Below, piece after piece: positions 6,181 through 60,575 of a stretch of DNA of 64,000 nt; the stretch's first letter is position 1, and each line of letters begins with the position of its first letter. The stretch is taken from assembly GCA_900170005.1 (NCBI GenBank), contig LT827128.1, positions 1,550,001-1,614,000 of the forward strand, read 5' to 3'. Position numbers and translations under genes: made by a program. The notes under the pieces are model-generated. The model was not told the DNA's origin, did not search any database, and saw only the letters and a program-made list of their open reading frames with translations. This DNA is from Gordonibacter massiliensis (ex Traore et al. 2017) (GTDB lineage: Bacteria > Actinomycetota > Coriobacteriia > Coriobacteriales > Eggerthellaceae).

Positions 6181-6268
6181 TGGAAAGCTTATAGCCGCGC
6201 GAAGGAATTAAGGAATCAATTCCTCGCTCTCCTTACGGGAGACGGTCTGAACGGTTGTCCGGCCAGCA

Positions 6269-9200
6269 GTTTCAACCCTCGAGCCAGTGAGGGCTCGACC
6301 AACGCTTGGGCCAACAGCAACACGATCAGCATCGTTTCAACCCGCGAACCCGTGAGGGCTCGACGGCGTGTCGGTATTCGACGGCGCCGTGGGCGCGGTG
6401 TTTCAACCCGCAAGCCCGTGAGGGGCTCGAGTGCTTCGACTCCACAGGCTGATACAGGTAAGCGTCGTTTCAACCCGCGAGCCCGTGAGGGCTCGACAAA
6501 AGGGCTTCGCCGCACGGGCAAGGCGTTCGAGTTTCAACCCGCGAGTCCGTGAGGGCTCGACACGTAAAGCCGTACCTCTCCGCGAGGCCGTTCAGGTTTC
6601 AACCCGCGAGCCCGTGAGGGCTCGACGTAGTCCCCGCCAAGAACGCCAGGCCCACTGCGTGTTTCAACCCGCGAGCCCGTAAGGGCTCGACGTTGGCCAT
6701 GGCCTGCCGCCAGAACATGTCCGTGTTTCAACCCGCGAGCCCGTGAGGGCTCGACCTTGCAGCGGCTTGGAGTTCTGCACCATTCCGACGTTTCAACCCG
6801 CGAGCCCGTGAGGGCTCGACGGCGGCCTAGGACGTGGCCGGGCTGCTCGCACATGTTTCAACCCGCGAGCCCGTGAGGACTCGACGAAGGCGCCGTGCGG
6901 GTTCGCTTGCGCGTTGGAGGTTTCAACCCGCGAGCCCGTGAAGACTCGATTCCATGGTTCCTACTCTCTCTAGCGTTCGGTTTATGTTTCAACCCGCGAG
7001 CCCGTGAGGGCTCGACGTATAGGGTATATGGCGCTTACGCACCAACTAGGTTTCAACCCGCGAGCCCGTGAGGGCTCGACGAAAGCAGTCGATCTTCCAA
7101 ACTGTCTTTTACCGTGTTTCAATCCGCGAGCCCGTGAGGGTTCGACGCTGACGAACAAGCGGTACTCGCTTCCGTTCGCGTTTCAACCCGCGAGCCCGTG
7201 AGGGTTCGATCACCGAACGCGCCGCCCAAGATCGCACGACAACGATAGTTTCAACCCGCGAGCCCGTGAGGGTTCGACGCGCAACGACAGCTACCAGATA
7301 GCCGCAATCCTGAAGTTTCAACCCGCGAGCCCGTGAGGGTTCGACCAGACAAGAGCGCCGTCTGCGTCTGACCAAGCGTTGTTTCAACCCGCGAGCCCGT
7401 GAGGGTTCGACCGGAGCCTGAGCCGACCCCGGACGTGCAGCAGCTTGTTTCAACCCGCGAGCCCGTGAGGGTTCGACCGAAGGTAAGGTGCCAACGCCTC
7501 GCCGCGCTTCCCGTTTCAACCCGCGAGCCCGTGAGGGTTCGACGGCCGATCCCGGAACCGTGGACAAACCGAGCATGTTTCAACCCGCGAGCCCGTGAGG
7601 GTTCGACTTTCCAGTGCCTTCTCGACCTCGGCCTGTCGGTGTTTCAACCCGCGAGCCCGTGAGGGTTCGACCCGTGCTCTCTCCCGTTATGGACTACCTG
7701 GGCGAGTTTCAACCCGCGAGCCCGTGAGGGTTCGACCAGCGTTACCGCTCCGCCGCCGAGCGCGCCGACAAGGTTTCAACCCGCGAGCCCGTGAGGGTTC
7801 GACACATGATAAGGATGTGATCGAATGACTATCTGGGAGTTTCAACCCGCGAGCCCGTGAGGGTTCGACGATACTGGGGGTGGAGTAATATGGCCTACCA
7901 GAAGTTTCAACCCGCGAGCCCGTGAGGGTTCGACCGCCCTTGCCGAGGCCGACGCCGAGCTTGGAGGTGTTTCAACCCGCGAGCCCGTGAGGGTTCGACA
8001 ACTGCACGCTCGACATGGCATTCGGCGACTCCGAGTTTCAACCCGCGAGCCCGTGAGGGTTCGACAGGGGTCGCAGAGGTACGGCGACGGGAGCATAGAG
8101 TTTCAACCCGCGAGCCCGTGAGGGTTCGACCGAAAGAAAGATCCCGAGGCGCGCCGCAGCCCGGTCGTTTCAACCCGCGAGCCCGTGAGGGTTCGACTCT
8201 TCGCGATGATGATTTCGATTGGTACTCGCCGGTTTCAACCCGCGAGCCCGTGAGGGTTCGACCCTTCGTTGCGGCCTCGGTCGTTTCGGACTCCATGTCG
8301 TTTCAACCCGCGAGCCCGTGAGGGTTCGACACGTAGATTCCTACCCATCCGGTGTCGCGGGATATGGTTTCAACCCGCGAGCCCGTGAGGGTTCGACTAT
8401 CACCGTCCAATCGCCGGATGTGTGGCATATGGTTTCAACCCGCGAGCCCGTGAGGGTTCGACGCTTTATGTAGCGTTGATTTTCCATCGGGCGAATACTA
8501 GTTTCAACCCGCGAGCCCGTGAGGGTTCGACGAATCCTCAAGGTCAAGCGTGCCGAACTCGGATGGTTTCAACCCGCGAGCCCGTGAGGGTTCGACCGAC
8601 CGAGAGGCGGCAATCCTTCGCAAGATGAAGTTTCAACCCGCGAGCCCGTGAGGGTTCGACCGACCCCTATTGCCTGTTCGAGGACTTCGACGGTTTCAAC
8701 CCGCGAGCCCGTGAGGGTTCGACGCAAGGCTTAACGTCGGCAACAGCAGCGGCTTCGTGTTTCAACCCGCGAGCCCGTGAGGGTTCGACATGTCTAAAGA
8801 CGTTGCCAAACGTGATTCATATGTTTCAACCCGCGAGCCCGTGAGGGTTCGACAGACGGTCATAATGCCCAAGAGCGTACCAACGGGTTTCAACCCGCGA
8901 GCCCGTGAGGGTTCGACTGTGCCGTCGATTTCGCGTTCGTCCGAGCTGACGGGTTTCAACCCGCGAGCCCGTGAGGGTTCGACGGTAACGTCCTCGTGGA
9001 CAATCGTCTGGCATATAGTTTCAACCCGCGAGCCCGTGAGGGTTCGACTTTTATAGCCAGCGCGCCTTCGTAACTCTTTTAGCTGTTTCAACCCGCGAGC
9101 CCGTGAGGGTTCGACTCTCGATTGTGCGCGCGGCGAACGAAGCATGGCTGTTTCAACCCGCGAGCCCGTGAGGGTTCGACTGTTCCCGTATTTGATAAGG

Positions 9201-9576: not shown

Positions 9577-9780
9577 AGTCGAAATATGCAAAAACATGCA
9601 TTATTTCGACAAAAAGTAAATTATTATGAATATTTGAAGAGCAATACCGGAAGTAATACGGCAAAAACACCGCCCTTCCTGCGCGAACCTCCCGAATGAC
9701 GCGCCATAGCTAGGGGTTCGCGCAGCGTCGTCTTCTACCTATTCGGCTGTCAAGGTGCACGCGTTGAACCGCCGTCGATC
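9577..9780 (-). promoter_or_regulatory. Leader of CRISPR array 1
   Basis: AT-rich stretch between the newest repeat and the cas2 stop. Nine bases from the repeat is a dyad, TATGCA (9585-9590) and TGCATT (9597-9602). At 104 bases from the repeat is a 45-base segment with perfect 10-bp arms, TGCGCGAACC (9680-9689) and GGTTCGCGCA (9715-9724). Both elements recur at exactly the same distances beside array 2. The arrangement fits a leader with integration signals near the repeat and a promoter or regulator site further out. No gene was found here. Confidence 0.8.
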
Positions 9781-17710: not shown

Positions 17711-17841
17711 ATTTCAATCCGCGCACGTTAGCTGCGACAAGAATATTTTACCTCAAATGCCCGCTTCGCCCGAATTACATGCTCAAGGATATTACGACTG
17801 CCAGCCAATAACTACGCTCACGCGCCCACAAGGGGCGCGAC
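17711..17841 (-). repeat. Two decayed repeats beyond the old end of array 2
   Basis: 17711-17738 (starting ATTTCAATCCGCGCA, ending GCTGCGAC) and about 17810-17841 (ending CACAAGGGGCGCGAC) resemble the array 2 repeat with many changes. The second is 65 bases from the first recognisable repeat at 17875, the normal unit length, so these look like the decayed oldest units of the array. Confidence 0.55.
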
Positions 17842-17874
17842 GCCCTTCCAGGCCGAGTACTTCCGCTTCGTCAA

Positions 17875-22135
<4,261 letters not shown>

Positions 22136-33295: not shown

Positions 33296-33480
33296 TTGTC
33301 ATCCTGAGCGGAGCGCCGAAGGCGCGGAGTCGAAGGATCTTCAGCATCGGAAGGATTCCATCGTCGAAGATCCTTCGACTCCGGCCTGCGGCCTCCGCTC
33401 AGGATGACAAGAAGAGGAGGGCTTGCGGCCTTCCACCAGGATGACAAGAGGGGGCCTGCGGCCCCCTCTCAAGATGACAG
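33296..33480. repeat. Compound palindromic intergenic element
   Basis: Outer arms TTGTCATCCTGAGCGGA (33296-33312) and TCCGCTCAGGATGACAA (33394-33410) are perfect complements. Inner arms at 33326-33342 and 33366-33382 (GGAGTCGAAGGATCTTC and its complement) also pair. The tail holds two further partial copies (AGGATGACAAG near 33453, AAGATGACAG near 33472) with a GGGGGCCTGCGGCCCCC hairpin between them. It lies between convergent genes and could act as a two-way terminator. GTCATCCTGAG palindromes of this kind are dispersed intergenic repeats in many bacteria. Confidence 0.7.
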
Positions 33481-38975: not shown

Positions 38976-40151
38976 CTATTCGGAATCGGTTGCGGAGGAG
39001 GCGGCGAGGAAGCCGTCGAAGCTCGCGCGGTCCTGCACGCAGGCGCGCTTCGCGGTCAAGGCGCAGCGCTTCACGAGGTTCGCCAGCACCCCGCCGAAGC
39101 CCACCTCGACGAACGTGTCGGCTCCGGCGCCGGCCAGCGCCTCGACGCTCTGCTGGAAGCGCACGGGACTCGTGAGATGGCGCACGAGATGGTCGCGCGC
39201 CTCGGCGGCGGACAGCGGCGCGGCGGTGACGTTGCAGACGAGCGGGATGCGCGGCTCCGAGAACTCGACGTCCTCCAGGTAGGCGGCGAGCCCGGCCGCG
39301 GCATCGGCCATGAGAGGGCTGTGGAACGCGCCCGACGTGGCCAGGCGCGACGAGCGCTTCCCCGCCTCGGCCCACGCCGCCTCGGCGCGCGCGACGGCCG
39401 CCGACGCGCCCGCGACGACGATCTGCCCCGGGCAGTTGAAGTTCGCGGGCACCAGCACCTCGCCTTCGGCGCACTGGTCGCAGAGCGCGACGACACTCTC
39501 CTCGTCAGCCTTCAAAAGGGCGCTCATGGCCCCCGGATGCGCGGCGGCCGCCTCGGCCATGAGCTCCGAGCGCGCCTTCACGAACGCGAACGTCGCCTCG
39601 TCGGAAAGCATGCCCGACACGGCCAGCGCGCTCACCTGCCCCAGCGAGAAGCCCAGCACCGCCGCCGGCTCCGCGCCGCGCGCCATGAGGGCGCGCGCGA
39701 CAGCCACCGACAGCACGCACAACGCCGGCTGGGCGTTGCGCGTGTCGTTGAGCTCGTCGGGATCGGCGTTGAGCACGAGGTCGGCCACGTCGTATCCCAG
39801 CACGTCTGACGCGCAGGCGAACACCTCCCCCACCTCTTTCACAGCGAGGAGATCGCCCCCCATGCCGGGTTTCTGCGACCCCTGCCCCGAGAACATGAAC
39901 ACAGGCGCACCAGAGGAGATGGAAGGGATCGCCGAACCGGAACAGGGCTGGACGGCAACACTCGTCAAACGACTTCCGGCGTCCTTGGAGCAGGAGGCGT
40001 CGGGGGTGCCCACCAAGCGAGTTCCGCAGCGCAGCGAGGACTGTTCGAGCGACTGGGTATCCCCGACGCCTCCTGCGGTCGCACAGCAAGCAACCTCTTC
40101 GGGGGACTGGGTGTCGACGACCGGCCCTCCCGCAGGTTGAAGATCAGCCAC
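38976..40151 (-). CDS. fabD: Malonyl-CoA:ACP transacylase FabD with a repeat-derived N-terminal extension
   Basis: 391 residues; the FabD fold starts only at about residue 83 (PVFMFSGQGSQKPGMG). It loads malonate onto ACP. The nucleophile motif reads GFSLGQ, where GHSLGE is usual; the catalytic His is in SGAFHSPLM, and VEVGFGGVLANLV is the conserved end. GTG at 40151 follows AGGAGG with 8-base spacing, so the ~80-residue extension is probably translated. It includes DTQSLEQSSLRCGTRLV (residues 31-47), encoded by the same 46-base core found in rnr. Gaps are 10 bases to fabK and 13 to fabG. Confidence 0.92.
   Translation of the reverse strand: MADLQPAGGPVVDTQSPEEVACCATAGGVGDTQSLEQSSLRCGTRLVGTPDASCSKDAGSRLTSVAVQPCSGSAIPSISSGAPVFMFSGQGSQKPGMGGDLLAVKEVGEVFACASDVLGYDVADLVLNADPDELNDTRNAQPALCVLSVAVARALMARGAEPAAVLGFSLGQVSALAVSGMLSDEATFAFVKARSELMAEAAAAHPGAMSALLKADEESVVALCDQCAEGEVLVPANFNCPGQIVVAGASAAVARAEAAWAEAGKRSSRLATSGAFHSPLMADAAAGLAAYLEDVEFSEPRIPLVCNVTAAPLSAAEARDHLVRHLTSPVRFQQSVEALAGAGADTFVEVGFGGVLANLVKRCALTAKRACVQDRASFDGFLAASSATDSE
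39991..40075. repeat. Core-plus-stem element inside fabD (copy A)
   Basis: Arms CAGGAGGCGTCGGGG (39991-40005) and CCCCGACGCCTCCTG (40061-40075) pair perfectly and flank a 46-base core (40011-40056, starting CACCAAGCGAG, ending CGAGCGACTGG). The core is identical to 44779-44824 in rnr, but the arms differ. CCTTGGAGCA at 39983-39992 is also shared with the rnr copy (44751-44760). It reads without stops in the fabD frame. A possible degenerate half-copy of the core end lies at about 40100-40130 (encoding DTQSPEE). Confidence 0.85.
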
Positions 40152-40161
40152 GGCAAACCTC

Positions 40162-41133
40162 CTAGATCGCGCGCCCGCGCCGAGCGTTCAGCGCAGCCAC
40201 CGCTTCGAGGTCGAGCCCGCCGAGCGCTTCCGCCTCTTTCACCATTGCGGCGATAGCCTCCGCCGCCGTCGCGCGCTCGTGCACGAGTGCGGCGGACTGG
40301 CCGGCCATCATGGTGCCGTTGTCCACGTCGCCCTCCACCGCGCGGCGCAGGGAGCCCACGTACATGGCCTCCAGCTCGTTGCCGTTGGCGGCGACGTCGC
40401 CCTCGAGCTTGCGCACGGTGCGGGCGAACTTGTTCTTCAGGCAGCGCACGGGATGCCCGCTGCCGCGGCCCGTGACGATGGTGTCGGCGTCCTTGGCGGC
40501 GATCACCTTGTCCTTGTAGGCGTCGGCGATGGTGCACTCGTCCACCGTGAGGAAGCGGGTGCCCACCTGCACGCCCTCGGCGCCCAGCGCGAAGGCGGCG
40601 GCCATGCCGCGCCCGTCGGCGATGCCGCCCGCGGCGATCACGGGGATGGACACGGCGTCGCACACCGCCGGGATGAGCGCCATCGTGGTCAGCTCGCCGA
40701 TGTGGCCGCCGGCCTCGGTGCCCTCGGCCACCACGGCGTCGGCGCCGAGGCGCTCCATGCGCGCGGCCAGCGCGCTCGAGGCCACCACGGGCACCACCTT
40801 GATGCCGGCTTCCTTCCACATGGGCAGGTAGTTCGCAGGCGAACCCGCGCCCGTCGTGATCACGTCCACGCGCAGCCTCGCCAAAAGCTCGGCCGTCTCG
40901 CCGGCGTTCGGGTCCATGAGCATGACGTTCGCGCCGATGGGCTTGTCGGTCATCGAGCGGGCGATGCGCACCTGCTCCTCCACCCAGTCGAGCGGCGCGC
41001 CGCCGCACGCGATGATGCCCAGGCCGCCGGCCTCGCTCACCGCGCCTGCCAGGCTCGCGTTCGCGATGCGCGCCATGGCGCCCTGGATGACGGGCACCTC
41101 GATGCCCAGCAGTTCCGTGATACGCGTCTTCAT
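40162..41133 (-). CDS. fabK: Enoyl-ACP reductase II FabK (FMN-dependent)
   Basis: 323 residues of the nitronate monooxygenase/FabK TIM-barrel family. It performs the last reduction of each elongation cycle, in place of FabI. Conserved stretches: PVIQGAMARIANASLAGAVS, GGLGIIACGG, GADAVVAEGTEAGGH, IPVIAAGGIADGRGM and GAEGVQVGTRFL (FMN phosphate loop). Its place between acpP and fabD fixes FabK over a true nitronate monooxygenase. ATG at 41133 is preferred; an in-frame TTG at 41139 is better spaced from AGAGGAG and would add two residues. Confidence 0.93.
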   Translation of the reverse strand: MKTRITELLGIEVPVIQGAMARIANASLAGAVSEAGGLGIIACGGAPLDWVEEQVRIARSMTDKPIGANVMLMDPNAGETAELLARLRVDVITTGAGSPANYLPMWKEAGIKVVPVVASSALAARMERLGADAVVAEGTEAGGHIGELTTMALIPAVCDAVSIPVIAAGGIADGRGMAAAFALGAEGVQVGTRFLTVDECTIADAYKDKVIAAKDADTIVTGRGSGHPVRCLKNKFARTVRKLEGDVAANGNELEAMYVGSLRRAVEGDVDNGTMMAGQSAALVHERATAAEAIAAMVKEAEALGGLDLEAVAALNARRGRAI

Positions 41134-41208
41134 GCTCAAGTTCGCTCCTCTTCGTTCCGGCGTGCGTCAAAGCAAGGGCCCCGCAGCGGGGCCCGATCGG
41201 CATGCGCT

Positions 41209-41430
41209 TTACTTCAGCGAGTCGATGTGCGCGACGAGCTGGCCGATGGTCTCGATGCCCTCGGGCTCGCCGAACTCGACCTCGCACTTCTCCTCCAGGT
41301 CGCAGATAAGCTCGACCATGTCGAGCGAGTCGACGCCGAGCGACTCCAGCGTGGCGTCCTCGGTGATCTTGTCGGCCTCGAGGTCGAGGTTCTCCACGAG
41401 CACGTCTTTCACGATGTCGATGGTAGCCAT
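41209..41430 (-). CDS. acpP: Acyl carrier protein
   Basis: 73-residue acidic carrier. The phosphopantetheine Ser is in LGVDSLDMVEL; the flanking helices (IDIVKDVLVENLDLEADKI, GIETIGQLVAHIDSL) are typical. ATG at 41430 follows AAAGGAA. It heads the acpP-fabK-fabD-fabG-fabF run, with a FabT-type palindrome about 30 bases upstream. Confidence 0.97.
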   Translation of the reverse strand: MATIDIVKDVLVENLDLEADKITEDATLESLGVDSLDMVELICDLEEKCEVEFGEPEGIETIGQLVAHIDSLK

Positions 41431-41461
41431 GGTTGCGTTCCTTTCACGTCATGCCAATTAG

Positions 41462-41474
41462 TTTGATAATCAAA
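41462..41474 (-). promoter_or_regulatory. FabT-like operator upstream of acpP
   Basis: TTTGATAATCAAA is a perfect palindrome with one central base, set in AGTTTGATAATCAAAGTA. It closely matches the FabT site known from streptococci (core TTTGATTATCAAA). It sits 32 bases before the acpP start, in the 296-base gap below the MarR gene, which otherwise holds no credible gene. Binding there would block transcription of the whole fab run. Confidence 0.7.
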
Positions 41475-41726
41475 GTATTTCTACCGAAGTAATGGTATGG
41501 TGGCGGACTTTCGATTGCAAGCCCCCTCGCCGCCCCTCCACGATTTCTGCGGCCTTCCCCTCTCTTCTTCCGCCCCGTTCCCGGCGCTCCCCGGGATGCT
41601 GCGACGCTTCCAGCCAAATCGTCCAGCCACGAACAGGGCGGCGCGGTCGTGCAGTGCGACGAACTTTCGCGAAGTGTGTGAGGAGTGCTGCGCGACCGCG
41701 CCGCCCGTCCCGCAGGTCGACACCCT

Positions 41727-42197
41727 CTAAGCCTGAGAATCGAAAAACGCCTTCACCTTCGCGAGCGCGTCGGCGAACACGCGCTCCTCTTCGTCGGTGA
41801 GGTCGGCCAGGGCCTCGTCGATCATCTGATGGTGGAACAGGTTGTGCGCGCGCAGCACCTGCCTGCCCTTCTTGGTGAGCGATACGAGCACCTTGCGCCG
41901 GTCGTCCTCCGCGCGCGTGCGGTCGACGAACCCCTTTTTGGCCAGCTTGTTCACCGCCGTGGTCAGCGTGGCCAGCGTCACGTTCAGGCGGGCGGCCACC
42001 ACGTTCATCGGATTGCGCTCGTGCAGCCCGACGGCCACGATGGTGTGCACTTCGGTGATGGTGAGCCCGTGGGTCAGGCGGTTGTCGAGCGACTGCTCCT
42101 CGATGCGCAGGATGGAGTTGAACGTACCCGACAGCAGGTCGTCGATCTCCTCGCGCCGCTGCCGCGACGCGCTCGCCTCCCGGTTGGAACCGTCCAT
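41727..42197 (-). CDS. MarR family regulator, probable FabT-like fatty-acid repressor
   Basis: 156 residues. The winged helix is clear: LTHGLTITEVHTIVAVGL, then MNVVAARLNVTLATLTTAVNKLAKKGFVDR and the wing RAEDDRRKVLVSLTKKG. In firmicutes the gene at this place is FabT, which uses acyl-ACP as co-repressor and binds a TTTGAT-type palindrome; such a site lies between this gene and acpP. The FabT role is inferred from position and operator. A separate promoter for the marR gene itself was not identified. Confidence 0.88.
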   Translation of the reverse strand: MDGSNREASASRQRREEIDDLLSGTFNSILRIEEQSLDNRLTHGLTITEVHTIVAVGLHERNPMNVVAARLNVTLATLTTAVNKLAKKGFVDRTRAEDDRRKVLVSLTKKGRQVLRAHNLFHHQMIDEALADLTDEEERVFADALAKVKAFFDSQA

Positions 42198-42251
42198 TCC
42201 CTCCCCCTTCTCGCTCGTCGCTTCACGTCGTTCGCATCATACCGCACAAAG

Positions 42252-43232
42252 TTAGACCGTCAAAGTACCGGGCTCGTCGGAGTCGGCGGATTCGCCCGCA
42301 ACCCCGCTATCGCGCGCATCGGCAGAAGCCCCGAGGCCGTCGACGCCGCGAAAGCCGCCACGCCCGCCGGAAGCGTTCGGCTCGCGAAAGGCGCCGGCCT
42401 CGCGAGGATCGCCGCGCCCGTCGCGGGTGCCGAGGCCCTCGTCCGACACGGAGAGCACGGGCACGAAGCGGCGCGCGAACGTGCCCTCCCCCTTGCTTTT
42501 CAAGTAACGGTAGCCGATGACGGAGAACGCGAGCGCGCCCACGAAGTTCACGAACAAATCCTCCATCGTGTCGATGAGCCCGATGTCCAGGTACCCTCCC
42601 AATCCCAGATCCTGCCCGTTCACCGTCACAGACCCGATGCCGTCGATGCGAAACGGCCGTTGCAGCCCCTCGGGGTCAAGCAGCACGCTCGAGATGGCCG
42701 ACACCACGGTGTCCTTCTGCATGTCCAGCCCGAACACCTGGTCCATGCCGAACTCGAAGAACTCCCATAGCACGCCGATGGTCATGGAGAAGCAGAAAGC
42801 CACGACGGCGCAGAAGAACGGCGAGAGGAAGAACGCGATGCGGTCCGAGCGGTTCAGGATGGACACGAGCGCGAGGCCGATGGCCGCCGCCAGAAACCCG
42901 TTGAACGTGTGCAGCAGCGTGTCCCAAAACGGGAAGATGGTGTAGAAGTGGAACACCTCGCCCAGGATCTCCGCGGCGAAGATGAACAGCGCGATGACCA
43001 CCTCGAGCGTCTCGGGTATCGTGATGCTGAAGTTGACCTCGATGAACGGCGGCACCAAGAACAGCACGAGCGTGAGCAGGCACAGGAAGAACGCCTCGTA
43101 GTTGCCGAACACGAGCGCGGCCACAGCGCAGGCCAGCACGACAAGGCGCAGCACCACGTACAGCGCGAATGTCTTCTTGTTGCGGCGCATGACATGCACC
43201 ATGGCCTTTGCCACGTCGCGCACCCGTCCCAT
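42252..43232 (-). CDS. Multi-pass membrane protein of unknown function
   Basis: 326 residues, with about six or seven hydrophobic segments in the first ~235 residues (TFALYVVLRLVVLACAVAAL, AFFLCLLTLVLFLVP, VVIALFIFAAEIL, AAAIGLALVSIL, LSPFFCAVVAFCFSMTIG, FVNFVGALAFSVIGY). Conserved-looking polar motifs lie between them: FWDTLLHTFNGF, GVLWEFFEFGMDQ and GLIDTMEDLFVN, reminiscent of the YjdF/DUF2238 group. The last ~80 residues are Gly/Ser/Asp-rich and probably cytoplasmic and disordered. ATG at 43232 follows GGGGAG. Function unknown. Confidence 0.8.
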   Translation of the reverse strand: MGRVRDVAKAMVHVMRRNKKTFALYVVLRLVVLACAVAALVFGNYEAFFLCLLTLVLFLVPPFIEVNFSITIPETLEVVIALFIFAAEILGEVFHFYTIFPFWDTLLHTFNGFLAAAIGLALVSILNRSDRIAFFLSPFFCAVVAFCFSMTIGVLWEFFEFGMDQVFGLDMQKDTVVSAISSVLLDPEGLQRPFRIDGIGSVTVNGQDLGLGGYLDIGLIDTMEDLFVNFVGALAFSVIGYRYLKSKGEGTFARRFVPVLSVSDEGLGTRDGRGDPREAGAFREPNASGGRGGFRGVDGLGASADARDSGVAGESADSDEPGTLTV

Positions 43233-43350
43233 AGCTCCCCTTCCTCGTCCGCGGAAACCGGTTTCCGCCTTTCAAAGGGCGCAAGACCGGGCGGACGCAC
43301 GACGCCACTATAAAGCAAAAAGGGCTCCGAACGCGAGCGAACCTTGCTTC

Positions 43351-45555
43351 TTAGCGCTCTTCGCGCGCCGGACGGAAGTCGAGCCGACCGGCGCGCGGGT
43401 CGGCCGCGGTCAGCACGACGGGAAGGCGCTGCCCCAAACGGTAAACCGTGCCCGTGTCCTGTCCCGTCAAGCGGTGCAGCACCGGATCGAACGAGAAGTA
43501 CTCGCGCCCGAGGTTTTTGAGCGGCACGAGCCCTTCGGCCGTGTTCTCCAACCGCACGTACACCCCGTACGTGGCCACGCCCGACACGACGGCCGGAAAC
43601 GCCTGCCCCACCGCGCGCTCCATGTACTCCACGATCTTGAGCTCTTGCGACTCGCGCGCCGCCTTCTCGGCCACGCGCTCCATGCTGGAGGAATGCTCGG
43701 CTATCCACGGAAGGGCGGCGACCTCCTGGTCGAACCGCTCCGGGCGGCGGCGCAACTGCGCCTTGAGCATGCGATGCACCACGAGGTCGGGATAACGCCT
43801 GATGGGGCTTGTGAAATGCGCGTACGCCTCGCTCGCCAGGCCGTAGTGGGGGTCGCAGACGGGGCGGTACACGGCGCGCTTCATGGATCTCAGCACGAGC
43901 GTTGACACGAGCTCGCCCTCCGGACGGCCCGCGCTCGCCTCGAGCACGCTGCCGAGCACGTGCGGGTCGCCGGCCACGAGCCGGTTCTGGTCGATATCCT
44001 TGAACCACGCGAACTCTTGGAACACCGGAACGAGCGCCGCCAAGCTGTCGGCCGAGGGCTTGTCGTGCACGCGGAAAAGGGCCGGGAACTTGGCGTCGCG
44101 CAGGTGGCGCGCCACCGTCTCGTTCGCCAGGATCATGGCCTCCTCGACAAGCGACGTCGCGTCCGTCTTGCGCCGCAGGTCGATGGCCACGGGGTGCCCC
44201 TCGCCGTCCAGGCGCACCTTCGCCTCGGTCGTGTCGAAGTCCAGGCCGCCGGCCGCCTCCCGCGCCGCCGCGCGCCGCTTCGCGATGCGCGAGAGCGCCG
44301 CGAGGCGCGCGGCGAGGGGGTCGTTCAATACCGCAGGTCCACTCAAGTCAGCGAGGGTTTCCACAGCGTCGGCGTTGCCTGTCGGCTGGCAAGCCGACAG
44401 CATATGCTGGGCCTCGTCGTACGTTAACCGGGCGTTCGACTCGATGAGCGCGGGGTACAGCTCGTAGCCCACGAGCCGAGCCTCGTCGTCCAGGTACAGG
44501 TCGGCCGTCATCGCGCGCCGCGCCTCGCCGGGCCGCAGCGAGCACAGGTCCCCCGACAGCTCCTCGGGAAGCATCGGGATGACCCGGTCGACCAAGTACA
44601 CGCTCGTCGCCCGCCTCCGCGCGTCCAGGTCGATCGACGAGTTCCACGGCACGTAATGCGACACGTCCGCGATATGCACCCCCAACCGCCACCGCGCCGC
44701 GCGGGCGCCGCGTCCGTCAACGAACCGCACCCCGGCAGGAACCTCTTCTCCCTTGGAGCAATCGAGGGCGGCGGCGTTCACCAAGCGAGTTCCGCAGCGC
44801 AGCGAGGACTGTTCGAGCGACTGGACGCCGCCGCCCCCGATCGCGGTCCCGCCGGTCGAAACCCGCTCCAAAGACAGCGCGTCGTCGAAATCCCGCGCAT
44901 CGGCGGGGTCGATGGTGAACGTGAAGCGCCCCCGCAGGTCGCGGTACCCTTCGGCGAGCGCCCCCTCCTCGTCCAGCACGGCGGCCCGCGCCTCGGCGAG
45001 CGCGCCTTCCGAGAACGTCGTCTCCAGCTTGTGCCGCGCCACGATGAGGTCCACGCCCAGCTCCTCGTCGTCCGCACGGCCGACGACCTCCTCCACCACG
45101 CCGGTGGCCGCCGTGTTGCGCGACGGGAACGTCGTGATGCGCACGCGCACGATCGACCCGTCCTCGATGTCCGGACGGTCGGTGCGCATGGTGAAGATGT
45201 CGTAGGGGATGCGCGGATCCTCGGGCACCACCACGCCGAAGGGCTCGGCCACCTCGTAGCGGCCCAGAATCGTATCGTGGGCGCGGTCGAGCACGCGCAC
45301 GACGCGCGCGGCCGGTTGGTCCGCGGGACGGGAGCCGCCCTGATGCGGCTGCTTCGCCCCTCCCTTGCCTCCCGTCGGGGGCAGGGGCGCCACTTCCACG
45401 AGATCGCCGTCGAAGGCGCCGCCCATCTTCGACGCGGGAACGAAAAAGGCGCCTTCGGCCGTCTGCACGAACCCGAAGCCGCCGCCGCGCACGGTCAGCA
45501 CGCCGCGCGGATTGCTGCGGGGGCGGCGGCGCGTATGCGACCGCGAGCGCGCCAC
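43351..45555 (-). CDS. rnr: Ribonuclease R with an insertion in the catalytic RNB domain
   Basis: About 734 residues. A cold-shock-like domain lies near the N-terminus (GVLTVRGGGFGFVQTAEG), then the RNB exonuclease (FTIDPADARDFDDALSLE with active-site Asp; GVHIADVSHYVPW; VYLVDRVIPMLPEELS; HFTSPIRRYPDLVVHR), then an S1 domain (VVSGVATYGVYVRLENTAEG). It degrades structured RNA 3' to 5'. Between DDALSLE and RLGVHIADV there are about 50 extra residues, including VQSLEQSSLRCGTRLV, encoded by the core-plus-stem repeat. GTG at 45555 is chosen; the frame open further upstream overlaps ctpA. The usual N-terminal helix-turn-helix of long RNase R is absent. Confidence 0.92.
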   Translation of the reverse strand: MARSRSHTRRRPRSNPRGVLTVRGGGFGFVQTAEGAFFVPASKMGGAFDGDLVEVAPLPPTGGKGGAKQPHQGGSRPADQPAARVVRVLDRAHDTILGRYEVAEPFGVVVPEDPRIPYDIFTMRTDRPDIEDGSIVRVRITTFPSRNTAATGVVEEVVGRADDEELGVDLIVARHKLETTFSEGALAEARAAVLDEEGALAEGYRDLRGRFTFTIDPADARDFDDALSLERVSTGGTAIGGGGVQSLEQSSLRCGTRLVNAAALDCSKGEEVPAGVRFVDGRGARAARWRLGVHIADVSHYVPWNSSIDLDARRRATSVYLVDRVIPMLPEELSGDLCSLRPGEARRAMTADLYLDDEARLVGYELYPALIESNARLTYDEAQHMLSACQPTGNADAVETLADLSGPAVLNDPLAARLAALSRIAKRRAAAREAAGGLDFDTTEAKVRLDGEGHPVAIDLRRKTDATSLVEEAMILANETVARHLRDAKFPALFRVHDKPSADSLAALVPVFQEFAWFKDIDQNRLVAGDPHVLGSVLEASAGRPEGELVSTLVLRSMKRAVYRPVCDPHYGLASEAYAHFTSPIRRYPDLVVHRMLKAQLRRRPERFDQEVAALPWIAEHSSSMERVAEKAARESQELKIVEYMERAVGQAFPAVVSGVATYGVYVRLENTAEGLVPLKNLGREYFSFDPVLHRLTGQDTGTVYRLGQRLPVVLTAADPRAGRLDFRPAREER
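44761..44841. repeat. Core-plus-stem element inside rnr (copy B)
   Basis: Arms ATCGAGGGCGGCGGCGT (44761-44777) and ACGCCGCCGCCCCCGAT (44825-44841) pair with one mismatch and enclose 47 bases. Of these, 46 (44779-44824) are identical to the fabD core. The arms are unrelated in sequence to the fabD arms. The element reads without stops in the rnr frame, giving the same peptide SLEQSSLRCGTRLV as in FabD. Confidence 0.85.
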
Positions 45556-45559
45556 AGCG

Positions 45560-46849
45560 CTATTCCCGCACGAGGGACTGGGCGGTTTCCAGAGCCAGGT
45601 TCTTCTGGTTGTCGCTGCCGGCATCGCCGCCAAGGCCCACCGACACGTCGGGCGTCACGCCCACGCCGTCGAACGAGCGCCCCTGGGGGCTCAGATAGTA
45701 GGCCGCCGTGTAGCGCAGCGCGCCGCCGAAGCTCAGGTCGCGCACCACCTGCACCGACCCCTTGCCCAGCGTCGAGGCGCCCACGAGCGTGGCGCGCTGG
45801 CTCTCCTGCAGCGCGGCGGCCAGCACCTCGGCGGCGGCGGCAGTGTTCTCGTTCACCAGCACCACGAGCGGCTTGTCGGTGGCCACGCTGCCCGTGGCCG
45901 ACTTCACGCTCTTGCCGTCCTTCGTCTCGATCTGCACGATGGCGCCACTCTTCACGAACAGGCTCGCCAGGTCCACGGCCTGCGTGAGGTACCCGCCGGG
46001 ATTGTCGCGGATGTCGAGCACGAACGAGAGGGCCCCCTGGGCGCCCAAATCCGCAAGCGCCTGCTTCACCAAGCTGGACGAGTTCTGCGTCAGCTGCTTC
46101 ACCTTGATGTAGCCCACGGTTCCGGAGAGGCTCGTCGTGACGTTCTTCACGTCGTACTTCGAGCAGGGCAGCGTCGTGGTGAACTCCTCGCCGCCCTCGG
46201 CCTCGAGCGCCGCCGGGCGCCGCCACGTCACGACCACGGTGTCGCCCTCCGCACGGTCGAGCGAGGCCGTGACCTCGTTCATGGACCACTCCTGGCCCCG
46301 GTCGCCGTCGACGGCCACCACGAAGTCGCCTTGGCGCACACCGGCCGCCTGGGCCGCCGAGCCGTCGAACACGTCCACGGCATAGGCCAGCCCGTTGTAT
46401 TCCGAGAACAGCACGCCCACGCCGGAGTAGCTGCCCGAGCTGTCGTGCATGAGGGAGGAGTAGCGCGCCGGGTCGTAGTAGCGCAGGTAGGGGTCCTCCG
46501 TGGTGTCGGCGAACGCGTCGAGCACGCCCATGGTCGCCGTGTCGAGGTCGTAGGAATCCAAGGAGTCGTTGGCGAGCGCGTCCTCGACTTCCGAGACGCG
46601 CGCCGATAGCGAGTTGTAGGCGTTCTTGTCCTTGGCCGCCGCCGTGCCCGCCGCGGAATCGCCGTTTTCGAGCAGCGGGGCGAAGCCGAGCGACGAGAGC
46701 AAGGCGTCGTTGCCGCGCACGGCGAAGCCTGCCACGAAGGCCGCGCAGAGGAACACGACGAGCGCGAACGTCCTCATCAAACGCAAATTGCGGGCCCGCG
46801 CTTTACGCGCGGACGCCGCAATCTGCTTGTTGTCTCCATGCCTTGCCAT
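45560..46849 (-). CDS. S41-family C-terminal processing protease-like protein, nucleophile replaced
   Basis: About 429 residues. An N-terminal membrane anchor (MRTFALVVFLCAAFVAGFAV) is followed by a PDZ domain (YSGVGVLFSEYNGLAYAVDV, AAGVRQGDFVVAVDG) and an S41 core (GTVGYIKVKQL, SFVLDIRDNPGGYL). The catalytic Lys is present in TLGKGSVQV. The Ser expected 25 residues before it (middle Ser of the usual SASASE) is Ala, because the segment reads NENTAAAAEVL. It is therefore either inactive or uses another residue. ATG at 46849 follows GGCGG. It sits between ftsX and rnr, a place where CtpA-type genes often lie. Confidence 0.88.
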   Translation of the reverse strand: MARHGDNKQIAASARKARARNLRLMRTFALVVFLCAAFVAGFAVRGNDALLSSLGFAPLLENGDSAAGTAAAKDKNAYNSLSARVSEVEDALANDSLDSYDLDTATMGVLDAFADTTEDPYLRYYDPARYSSLMHDSSGSYSGVGVLFSEYNGLAYAVDVFDGSAAQAAGVRQGDFVVAVDGDRGQEWSMNEVTASLDRAEGDTVVVTWRRPAALEAEGGEEFTTTLPCSKYDVKNVTTSLSGTVGYIKVKQLTQNSSSLVKQALADLGAQGALSFVLDIRDNPGGYLTQAVDLASLFVKSGAIVQIETKDGKSVKSATGSVATDKPLVVLVNENTAAAAEVLAAALQESQRATLVGASTLGKGSVQVVRDLSFGGALRYTAAYYLSPQGRSFDGVGVTPDVSVGLGGDAGSDNQKNLALETAQSLVRE

Positions 46850-60473: not shown

Positions 60474-60575
60474 CGGGAAAATCCGCTGTTAAACCAGCAT
60501 TGACATGCACCTGCTCAGGATGACAACGCGCTGGCTTGCATAATGTCAATGCTGGTTTAACAGCGGACGGGAAAA
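60474..60575. mobile_element. 86-bp MITE-like element with 8-bp target duplication
   Basis: Perfect 25-bp terminal inverted repeats at 60482-60506 (starting TCCGCTGTTAAACC) and 60543-60567 enclose a 36-base loop. CGGGAAAA flanks the element directly on both sides (60474-60481 and 60568-60575), as a target-site duplication would. The loop contains GCTCAGGATGACAA, also found in the 33296-33480 palindrome. It has no coding capacity and sits at the edge of the rsfS terminator. Confidence 0.78.

Follow-up and report, generated by a model that had tools for sequence, protein, structure and literature searches.

The stretch analysed here (hereafter the window) comprises 64,000 nt of the Gordonibacter massiliensis genome (contig LT827128.1, positions 1,550,001 to 1,614,000) and carries on its minus strand a fabK-like gene, a fabD open reading frame (ORF) and rnr, the gene of RNase R. 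Two repeats, one on the fabD side and one within rnr, share an identical 46-base core enclosed by arms that pair within each copy. These repeats are members of an apparently undescribed hairpin family in which the tip is fixed while the stems are private, i.e., have a sequence of their own in most copies. The respective features are as follows (window positions).

38976-40151, minus strand: fabD ORF with the acyltransferase domain from residue 84 of 391 (ORF list and domain search)
39943-39961, minus strand: 3' arm of an older outer copy (by eye), with GCCGTCCAGCCCTG in common with the right arm of locus L018
39983-39992, minus strand: outer right end TGCTCCAAGG of the fabK-fabD copy, 3 bases of it common with the arm
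39990-40005, minus strand: 3' private arm of the fabK-fabD copy, a 16 bp perfect inverted repeat with 40061-40076
40011-40056, minus strand: short-form core (tip) of the fabK-fabD copy, identical to 44779-44824
40061-40076, minus strand: 5' private arm of the fabK-fabD copy, pairing with 39990-40005
40105-40141, minus strand: 5' half of the older outer copy (TTCAACCTGCGGGAGGG..ACCCAGTC), by eye against the un-nested orthologues L018 and L072
40162-41139, minus strand: fabK-like gene with a Pfam NMO domain, the nested copies lying downstream of it (ORF list and domain search)
43351-45633, minus strand: rnr (RNase R) with an in-frame insert; RNB, CSD2 and S1 domains
44751-44760, minus strand: outer right end TGCTCCAAGG of the rnr copy (sequence match in the window)
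44761-44777, minus strand: 3' private arm of the rnr copy, 16/17 paired with 44825-44841 by eye, 12 contiguous pairs computed
44779-44824, minus strand: short-form core (tip) of the rnr copy, identical to 40011-40056
44825-44841, minus strand: 5' private arm of the rnr copy, complementary to 44761-44777
44843-44862, minus strand: outer left end (GTTTCGACCGGCGGGACCGC) of the rnr copy, which belongs to the insert and is missing from rnr of genomes G024, G063, G005 and G069

The sequence-only reading of the window had reported the two cores as identical, and indeed all 46 bases are alike, each copy giving the core when the minus strand is read. In the window, a 43-base piece of it is present two times, compared with no occurrence in 100 shuffles, such that a chance origin of the repeat is rejected. 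The reported arms are found as well: those of the rnr copy are complementary at 16 of 17 positions (read by eye), and those of the fabD-side copy pair perfectly, but over 16 bp instead of the 15 bp claimed. Both copies use the same reading frame, encoding GTRLV, and the further sequence they share (CCTTGGAGCA, found in the window at 39983 and 44751 only) is the element's outer right end. That the copies lie within two housekeeping genes is correct for rnr, where the copy is interior to the RNB domain. In the fabD ORF, the acyltransferase domain begins only at residue 84, such that the fabD-side copy sits either in the gap between fabK and fabD or in an N-terminal extension of the ORF. This copy is nested within an older one whose arms are starting to unpair (by eye). 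At the same site, Enteroscipio rubneri and the Gordonibacter genome G003 have one copy each, with a different stem (G000 to G004 are the members of the genus, where G000 is the window's own genome, 3.95 Mb in a single contig).

The rnr copy is a clear insertion. A complete element including its outer ends lies in frame in the RNB domain, and four other genera (G024, G063, G005, G069) have rnr without it. At the same position, G003 and G001 carry long-form elements (see below) with other arms, and G004 a perfect hairpin without tip (by eye); rnr of G002, whose assembly is 82% complete, was not found. An alignment of 114 bases that takes in the outer ends shows 87% identity of the G000 rnr element to another G000 copy; to a G003 copy, the identity is 90%. 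The G004 hairpin, as well as 113 tip-less hairpins detected in a scan of 838 stop codons at the same loci as the copies, would be expected if a mobile tip entered the loops of existing hairpins (e.g., terminators), i.e., if each stem were a host hairpin. We consider this very improbable, given that the four genera miss the whole element along with its outer ends and that the private arms are enclosed by conserved outer ends.

In total, five ORFs of the own genome bear the core, namely rnr, the fabD ORF and ORFs with ABC, TsaD plus GNAT, and CcmF domains, where rnr alone was compared with orthologues lacking the insert and the latter three were placed by coordinates only. The right half of the core is in the GTRLV frame in 5/5 of these ORFs (L183, L029, L033, L017, L232).

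Next, we searched the core in the own genome and in other Coriobacteriia, as the sequence-only reading had proposed. Many further copies are found and the family is much larger than two copies. A 20-base probe (at most 3 mismatches) yields 10 places in the own genome, i.e., nine long-armed copies and one chance match (L007). With a 42-base probe, the core is present in 5/5 Gordonibacter genomes (8, 11, 1, 6 and 5 copies), and a shorter probe matches 26 of 138 genomes at the level of the family Eggerthellaceae. A scan of one genome per species (84,980 species) returns at least 112 stretches, by title mostly from Coriobacteriia (Eggerthellaceae, Atopobiaceae and others); among the matches listed there are also Bdellovibrio-like, Omnitrophica and Fusobacteria records. 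Since 4/191 genomes match in a sample of the Bdellovibrio group, three of them already known, the distribution of this cross-phylum family is patchy. The Fusobacteria copies (2 and 7 places) are differently built, with a longer imperfect palindrome. Propionigenium maris (L281, L285, L288, L291, L294, L297, L299) has a family of long imperfect palindromes in which a similar tip lies close to the centre while the outermost arms differ; a predicted gene on their 5' side, where present, is more than 180 nt from the tip.

The tip, a motif of about 23 bases, recurs in very distant phyla and has no Rfam match. In the window stretch and 10 loci that were searched, Rfam 15 matches at the elements all stay below the curated score and are weak similarities to microRNAs or small RNAs. 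At L087 (4159-4328), a 6S RNA-like match is below its curated score (38.9 of 46.4 bits). Word searches of the open-access literature (repeats in Eggerthella or Gordonibacter, inverted repeats with conserved loops, palindromes in frame, stem-loops of Coriobacteriia) gave no description of the family among the papers listed. A literature search with the sequence itself likewise gave no title that looked relevant among 20 of 204 papers, and the main text of two papers on repetitive extragenic palindromic (REP) sequences gives no word match for Coriobacteriia, Eggerthella, Gordonibacter or Bdellovibrio. A phage or plasmid origin is rejected: a viral contig collection has no exact match to a 25-letter tip pattern, and blast matches in phages and plasmids extend over no more than 74% of the 34-base tip. 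Part of the tip is matched by 986 plasmid records (best 19-23 bases), 833 of them from Klebsiella. In the three records read, this enterobacterial plasmid motif has some of the tip in common with the elements but lacks such a stem. Two of the three (L203, L204, L205) show a TTACGGCT..AGCCGTAA hairpin alongside the tip-like part, with no gene listed there.

Two forms of the element can be distinguished. In the Gordonibacter group, the unit consists of the outer ends RACCTGCGGGACC ... TCCAAGG (consensus only) around a private stem of about 20 bp and the conserved tip, which is CTCRRACAGTCCTCGCNNNGCTGCGGAACTCGC in the short form. The long-form tip carries a second, inner private hairpin of about 10 bp, which a conserved internal loop separates from the outer private stem; its probe GGCTCGTGCGGAACTCGC (1 mismatch) finds 16, 18, 4, 15 and 8 copies in G000 to G004. 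Tip conservation is partly built into this sample, since all copies were gathered by a tip search with few mismatches.

Private self-complementary stems around the fixed core, which had been noted for the two window copies, are seen in more than 100 copies. We studied 137 distinct short-form copies (near-duplicates collapsed; copies with N or less than 32 bases of flank left out). Their own arms form at least 8 contiguous Watson-Crick pairs in 109 cases and at least 13 of 16 pairs in 121 cases. When arms are mixed across genomes (2887 draws), 2.0% and 0.8% reach the respective levels, while mixing between copies of one genome (638 ordered pairs) gives 11.9% and 12.5%. A covariation test, also suggested beforehand, agrees: for 48 type-A copies compared without gaps, 290 double-changed cells are observed vs. 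85.9 (standard deviation 6.2) in shuffles, 20/21 pairs change on both sides, and the covariation score is 0.749 vs. 0.185 when shuffled. Sliding the partner by 1-3 columns reduces pairing from 91% to 42-50%, where picking type-A copies with a scored stem at a common offset biases the paired percentage upward; genome G078 is not among the 48. Among Bdellovibrio-like and Omnitrophica copies with enough flank, 20/21 have stems, 9 to 51 pairs long.

According to the sequence-only reading, copies without complementary arms, or a plain repeat with the same arms throughout, would speak against private stems. Both occur to a degree, i.e., 16 of the 137 copies miss 13 of 16 pairs and the arms are common to 14/17 copies looked at in G078 (25 places in the genome), such that the private stem is a strong rule and not an absolute one. 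The arm sharing in G078 looks like recent ordinary dispersal. Together with the identities of the rnr element given above, it would suit a plain family, similar to REP sequences or miniature inverted-repeat transposable elements, that spreads as whole hairpins and whose private stems are merely diverged old copies. Such divergence alone would ruin the pairing, yet pairing is near-perfect, and we regard this explanation as quite unlikely. Nor does the transposase link that had been proposed for checking emerge: Y1_Tnp, the only transposase family searched, has no match in G000, and where it occurs (8/13 other carrier genomes), the core is in 0/20 of the Y1 loci fetched. Linkage to Y1 or REP-associated tyrosine transposases (RAYT) is therefore rejected for the genomes tested.

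The stems can also be compared at corresponding places. Among 110 copies of eight genomes, flank similarity gives 29 shared-site groups, where a one-sided flank match suffices and some groups chain neighbouring sites. Even for G024, another genus, 12/13 copies are within such groups. At many shared sites, short and long forms are swapped and the arms are different, with complementarity retained. We aligned the arms of 68 orthologue pairs out of 117 candidates (24 groups; all within-group pairs, thus not independent; pairs with unalignable arms left out). For the outer stem, 719 pairs are unchanged, 121 show double and 30 single changes (A.C 12, G.T 14, other 4), while the inner stem has 435 unchanged pairs, 70 double changes, and single changes of A.C (58) and G.T (6) type. 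A stricter cut (62 of the 117 pairs) provides a similar picture (177 double changes; single A.C 64, G.T 19). Transversion-type changes make up 74 of the 121 outer double changes, and an identical register shift in both arms is found in 23/68 pairs from 12 groups, with the pheS site contributing 8 of the 23.

Within the closest pair (G000, G003), true site pairs have flank identities of 0.79-1.00, mostly at least 0.9. Largely different arms are present at three site pairs, i.e., rnr, the nested vs. un-nested fabD copy, and L213/L229. The rows L154/L213 and L055/L229 compare different sites, and the "replaced" label of L250/L259 is a cut-off artefact (20/20 aligned pairs the same). We conclude that what is inherited of the stems is their complementarity and not their sequence.

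To explain private stems, the sequence-only reading had offered either selection for a stem-loop or an insertion mechanism that copies flanking host sequence in inverse orientation. Of this, the need for stem-loop selection or some arm-copying process stands, while copying of the flank at the moment of insertion is unsupported. The private arms are inside the element, between conserved parts (the core inside; RACCTGCGGGACC and TCCAAGG outside, for the Gordonibacter group), and several species have different arms at one and the same site without any re-insertion. Although the very long stems of Bdellovibrio-like copies (up to 51 scored pairs) would fit inverse flank copying, we give it hardly any credence.

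Next, we investigated where copies are placed relative to genes. Placement relied on a home-made gene finder with inexact gene starts, so some cases inside genes are N-terminal over-extensions. Out of 216 placed copies, 108 are intergenic with a same-strand gene upstream, 48 are within a same-strand ORF and 20 within an opposite ORF, with the remainder placed otherwise. Tandem intergenic copies are preferentially in sense orientation (69 vs. 25 antisense; p 6e-6), and convergent regions hold more copies than divergent ones (30 vs. 8; p 5e-4). For 101 sense copies, the stem starts at a median of 17 nt past the stop codon (5-24 nt in 55/101), a clustering that 20 antisense copies do not show at the stop of their right-hand gene (16 to 774 nt). 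In UBA6776 (Bdellovibrio-like), a same-strand gene precedes 9/12 copies looked at, with the tip 50-81 nt after the gene in 8 of these. The upstream genes of the own genome are varied (Pfam: alanyl- and phenylalanyl-tRNA synthetase, IF-2, biotin carboxylase, electron transfer flavoprotein, ABC transporters). The hairpin may serve the 3' end of the mRNA, i.e., its formation or stability. Since the motif of about 23 bases occurs in very distant phyla, has no Rfam match and is often at gene ends, the tip is perhaps read by some factor in the cell.

Intrinsic terminators are likewise sense-oriented hairpins shortly past a stop codon. In contrast to these, the elements have a fixed tip, are often located between tandem genes, and have no T tract following the stem. 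Base frequencies after the stem of 104 Eggerthellaceae copies are not T-rich, with only the first base being mostly T (77%), such that an intrinsic terminator with T tract is rejected. A TTT run within 10 nt of the tip is present in 12/12 UBA6776 copies looked at, but it lies within the arm (by eye).

For the mismatches remaining in the stems, we compared the zones of the 196 copies with a scored stem. The outer zone has 59 A.C, 44 G.T and 63 other mismatches and thus no strand preference (p 0.17), whereas 149 A.C, 16 G.T and 17 other are counted in the inner zone. Since antisense-placed copies share the inner bias (A.C 25 vs. G.T 5), it is a property of the element and not of the gene. As a control, we used the 113 tip-less hairpins, which show 34 G.T and 18 A.C (p 0.04 alone). 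Outer stem and control differ (Fisher p 0.01), with the caveat that related copies are pooled in these counts and that different limits applied to the scoring of the control (loops 3-9).

These statistics bear on the reading of the elements as structured RNA, either an element of the mRNA 3' untranslated region or an antisense RNA, whose stems would be held by ordinary compensatory selection alone and whose internal-loop letters would bind a protein. The strong covariation and the sense position after stop codons fit this reading, as do the long form with its conserved internal-loop letters and two private stems, and G-C to A-T covariation within the tip of several Bdellovibrio-like and Omnitrophica copies. 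Furthermore, the inner zone corresponds to G.U wobble when read on the complementary strand, and transition-type double changes dominate in the closest species pair. On the other hand, plain sense-strand RNA compensation should favour G.T, which the outer stem does not do (nor does it prefer wobble on either strand, be it in mismatches or in single changes, in contrast to the control), and the inner zone shows the opposite. Transversion-type double changes count against a wobble route as well, because a single wobble step cannot bridge them. The matching register shifts of both arms speak against it too, and the inner zone favours the strand that is antisense to the gene usually lying beside the element. 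We therefore treat compensatory selection alone as possible, if doubtful.

Our preferred explanation, in which we place about even confidence, is a once-mobile, REP-like palindrome that is kept at gene 3' ends and whose arms are rewritten in concert by template switching together with selection for an intact hairpin. The family would have dispersed in the past, as suggested by the rnr insertion and the burst of like copies in one genome, often to places right past stop codons in sense orientation, where copies persist across species and genera. During replication, the nascent strand may fold back at the tip, prime on the inner stem and copy the opposite arm by template switching. With one arm recopied onto the other, stems would change yet stay complementary, and selection would retain copies with an intact hairpin. 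The inner zone would then be the fold-back priming site of the nascent complementary strand and the outer stem the copied part. The inner A.C excess fits such priming, because an inner zone acting as primer pairs as G.T on the complementary strand. We thus infer template switching to be the agent of stem maintenance. PMC8794818 proposes that template switching via hairpin priming creates and repairs hairpins in RNA genes. The elements resemble the hairpins described there by perfect stems and multi-base concerted change of both arms with an unchanged loop, where the mutational event itself is not observed. They differ in that those are RNA genes (microRNA, rRNA), while here a dispersed bacterial family has one fixed tip.

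Several observations weigh against template switching as the agent. Besides the pooling of related copies and the differing control limits, the pairing rule has its exceptions, i.e., the 16/137 copies mentioned above and 20/216 without a scored stem. Among the outer double changes of the closest pair (G000, G003), 11/14 are of transition type, as wobble-mediated compensation would also yield. Either a sequence motif or selection on an RNA of the complementary strand could also account for the inner A.C band. Counting pairs from 5' to 3' (GC 1583 vs. CG 1086; TA 455 vs. AT 480), only one of the two base-pair asymmetries that PMC8794818 predicts for intrastrand switching is observed, and the same source regards the case for such a role in maintaining stems as circumstantial. 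Finally, arm-to-arm copying brings no new sequence, such that the wholesale replacement at rnr in three species needs a further step, e.g., exchange with another copy.

A bolder variant seems rather unlikely to us. Here, the family would form a class of selfish or domesticated elements whose identity is the tip plus pairedness. Folded into a hairpin, the complementary strand would be recognised via the tip, by an enzyme or by the replication fork, and a perfect stem would be rebuilt through snap-back copying of whatever flanks the tip. It would thus be complementarity, and not sequence, that is inherited, and the element would have spread between phyla by this means.

Among known systems, Rickettsia palindromic elements are palindromes inserted in frame inside protein genes. 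The rnr insertion, established against orthologues, is of this kind, but the stems are private here and most copies are outside genes. Integron attC sites follow genes in sense orientation and have a variable stem, of which one strand would be the folded one. All of this is similar for the present elements, except that their tip is the most conserved part and that their neighbours are housekeeping genes at shared places. Further marks of attC sites are GTTRRRY / RYYYAAC boxes and an integrase. In kind, the family belongs with the dispersed palindromes at gene ends. REP sequences and REPINs are dispersed short palindromes, mostly extragenic and with many copies per genome (PMC12306157), and the elements share these traits. 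REP sequences carry a GTAG or CGTC tag at one end (PMC3733652). In contrast to the REP/RAYT system, the copies share the tip but no consensus over the whole palindrome, and stems are private in most copies (G078 being the exception), with up to two per element. Furthermore, the core is without a Y1_Tnp link and some copies are in frame within genes.

How paired stems survive mutation, given that two matching changes have to come together, is a long-standing puzzle. With dozens of sites in related species that keep tip and place while stems of about 20 to more than 30 bp are rewritten, the family is an unusually clean natural system, in which template switching can be told from compensatory selection. 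Its mode of stem upkeep is unusual and testable.

The window holds further repeats. A perfect 14 bp stem with a 43-base loop (41636-41706) directly follows a gene; by eye, its loop is only loosely tip-like, and it is perhaps a diverged relative. Between predicted convergent genes, 60482-60567 is a perfect 25 bp inverted repeat with a 36-base loop unlike the tip. Inverted copies of a TGTCATCCTGAGCG type repeat are located at 33296-33410, a motif that also follows many G078 copies. Two long CRISPR-like arrays (6254-8542 onward and 17810-21983) have the related repeats GTTTCAACCCGCGAGCCCGTGAGGG(C/T)TCGAC and GTTTCAACCCACGCGCCCACGAGGGGCGCGAC, and another 46-base repeat is found at 9679-9724 and 22086-22131 with 89% identity.

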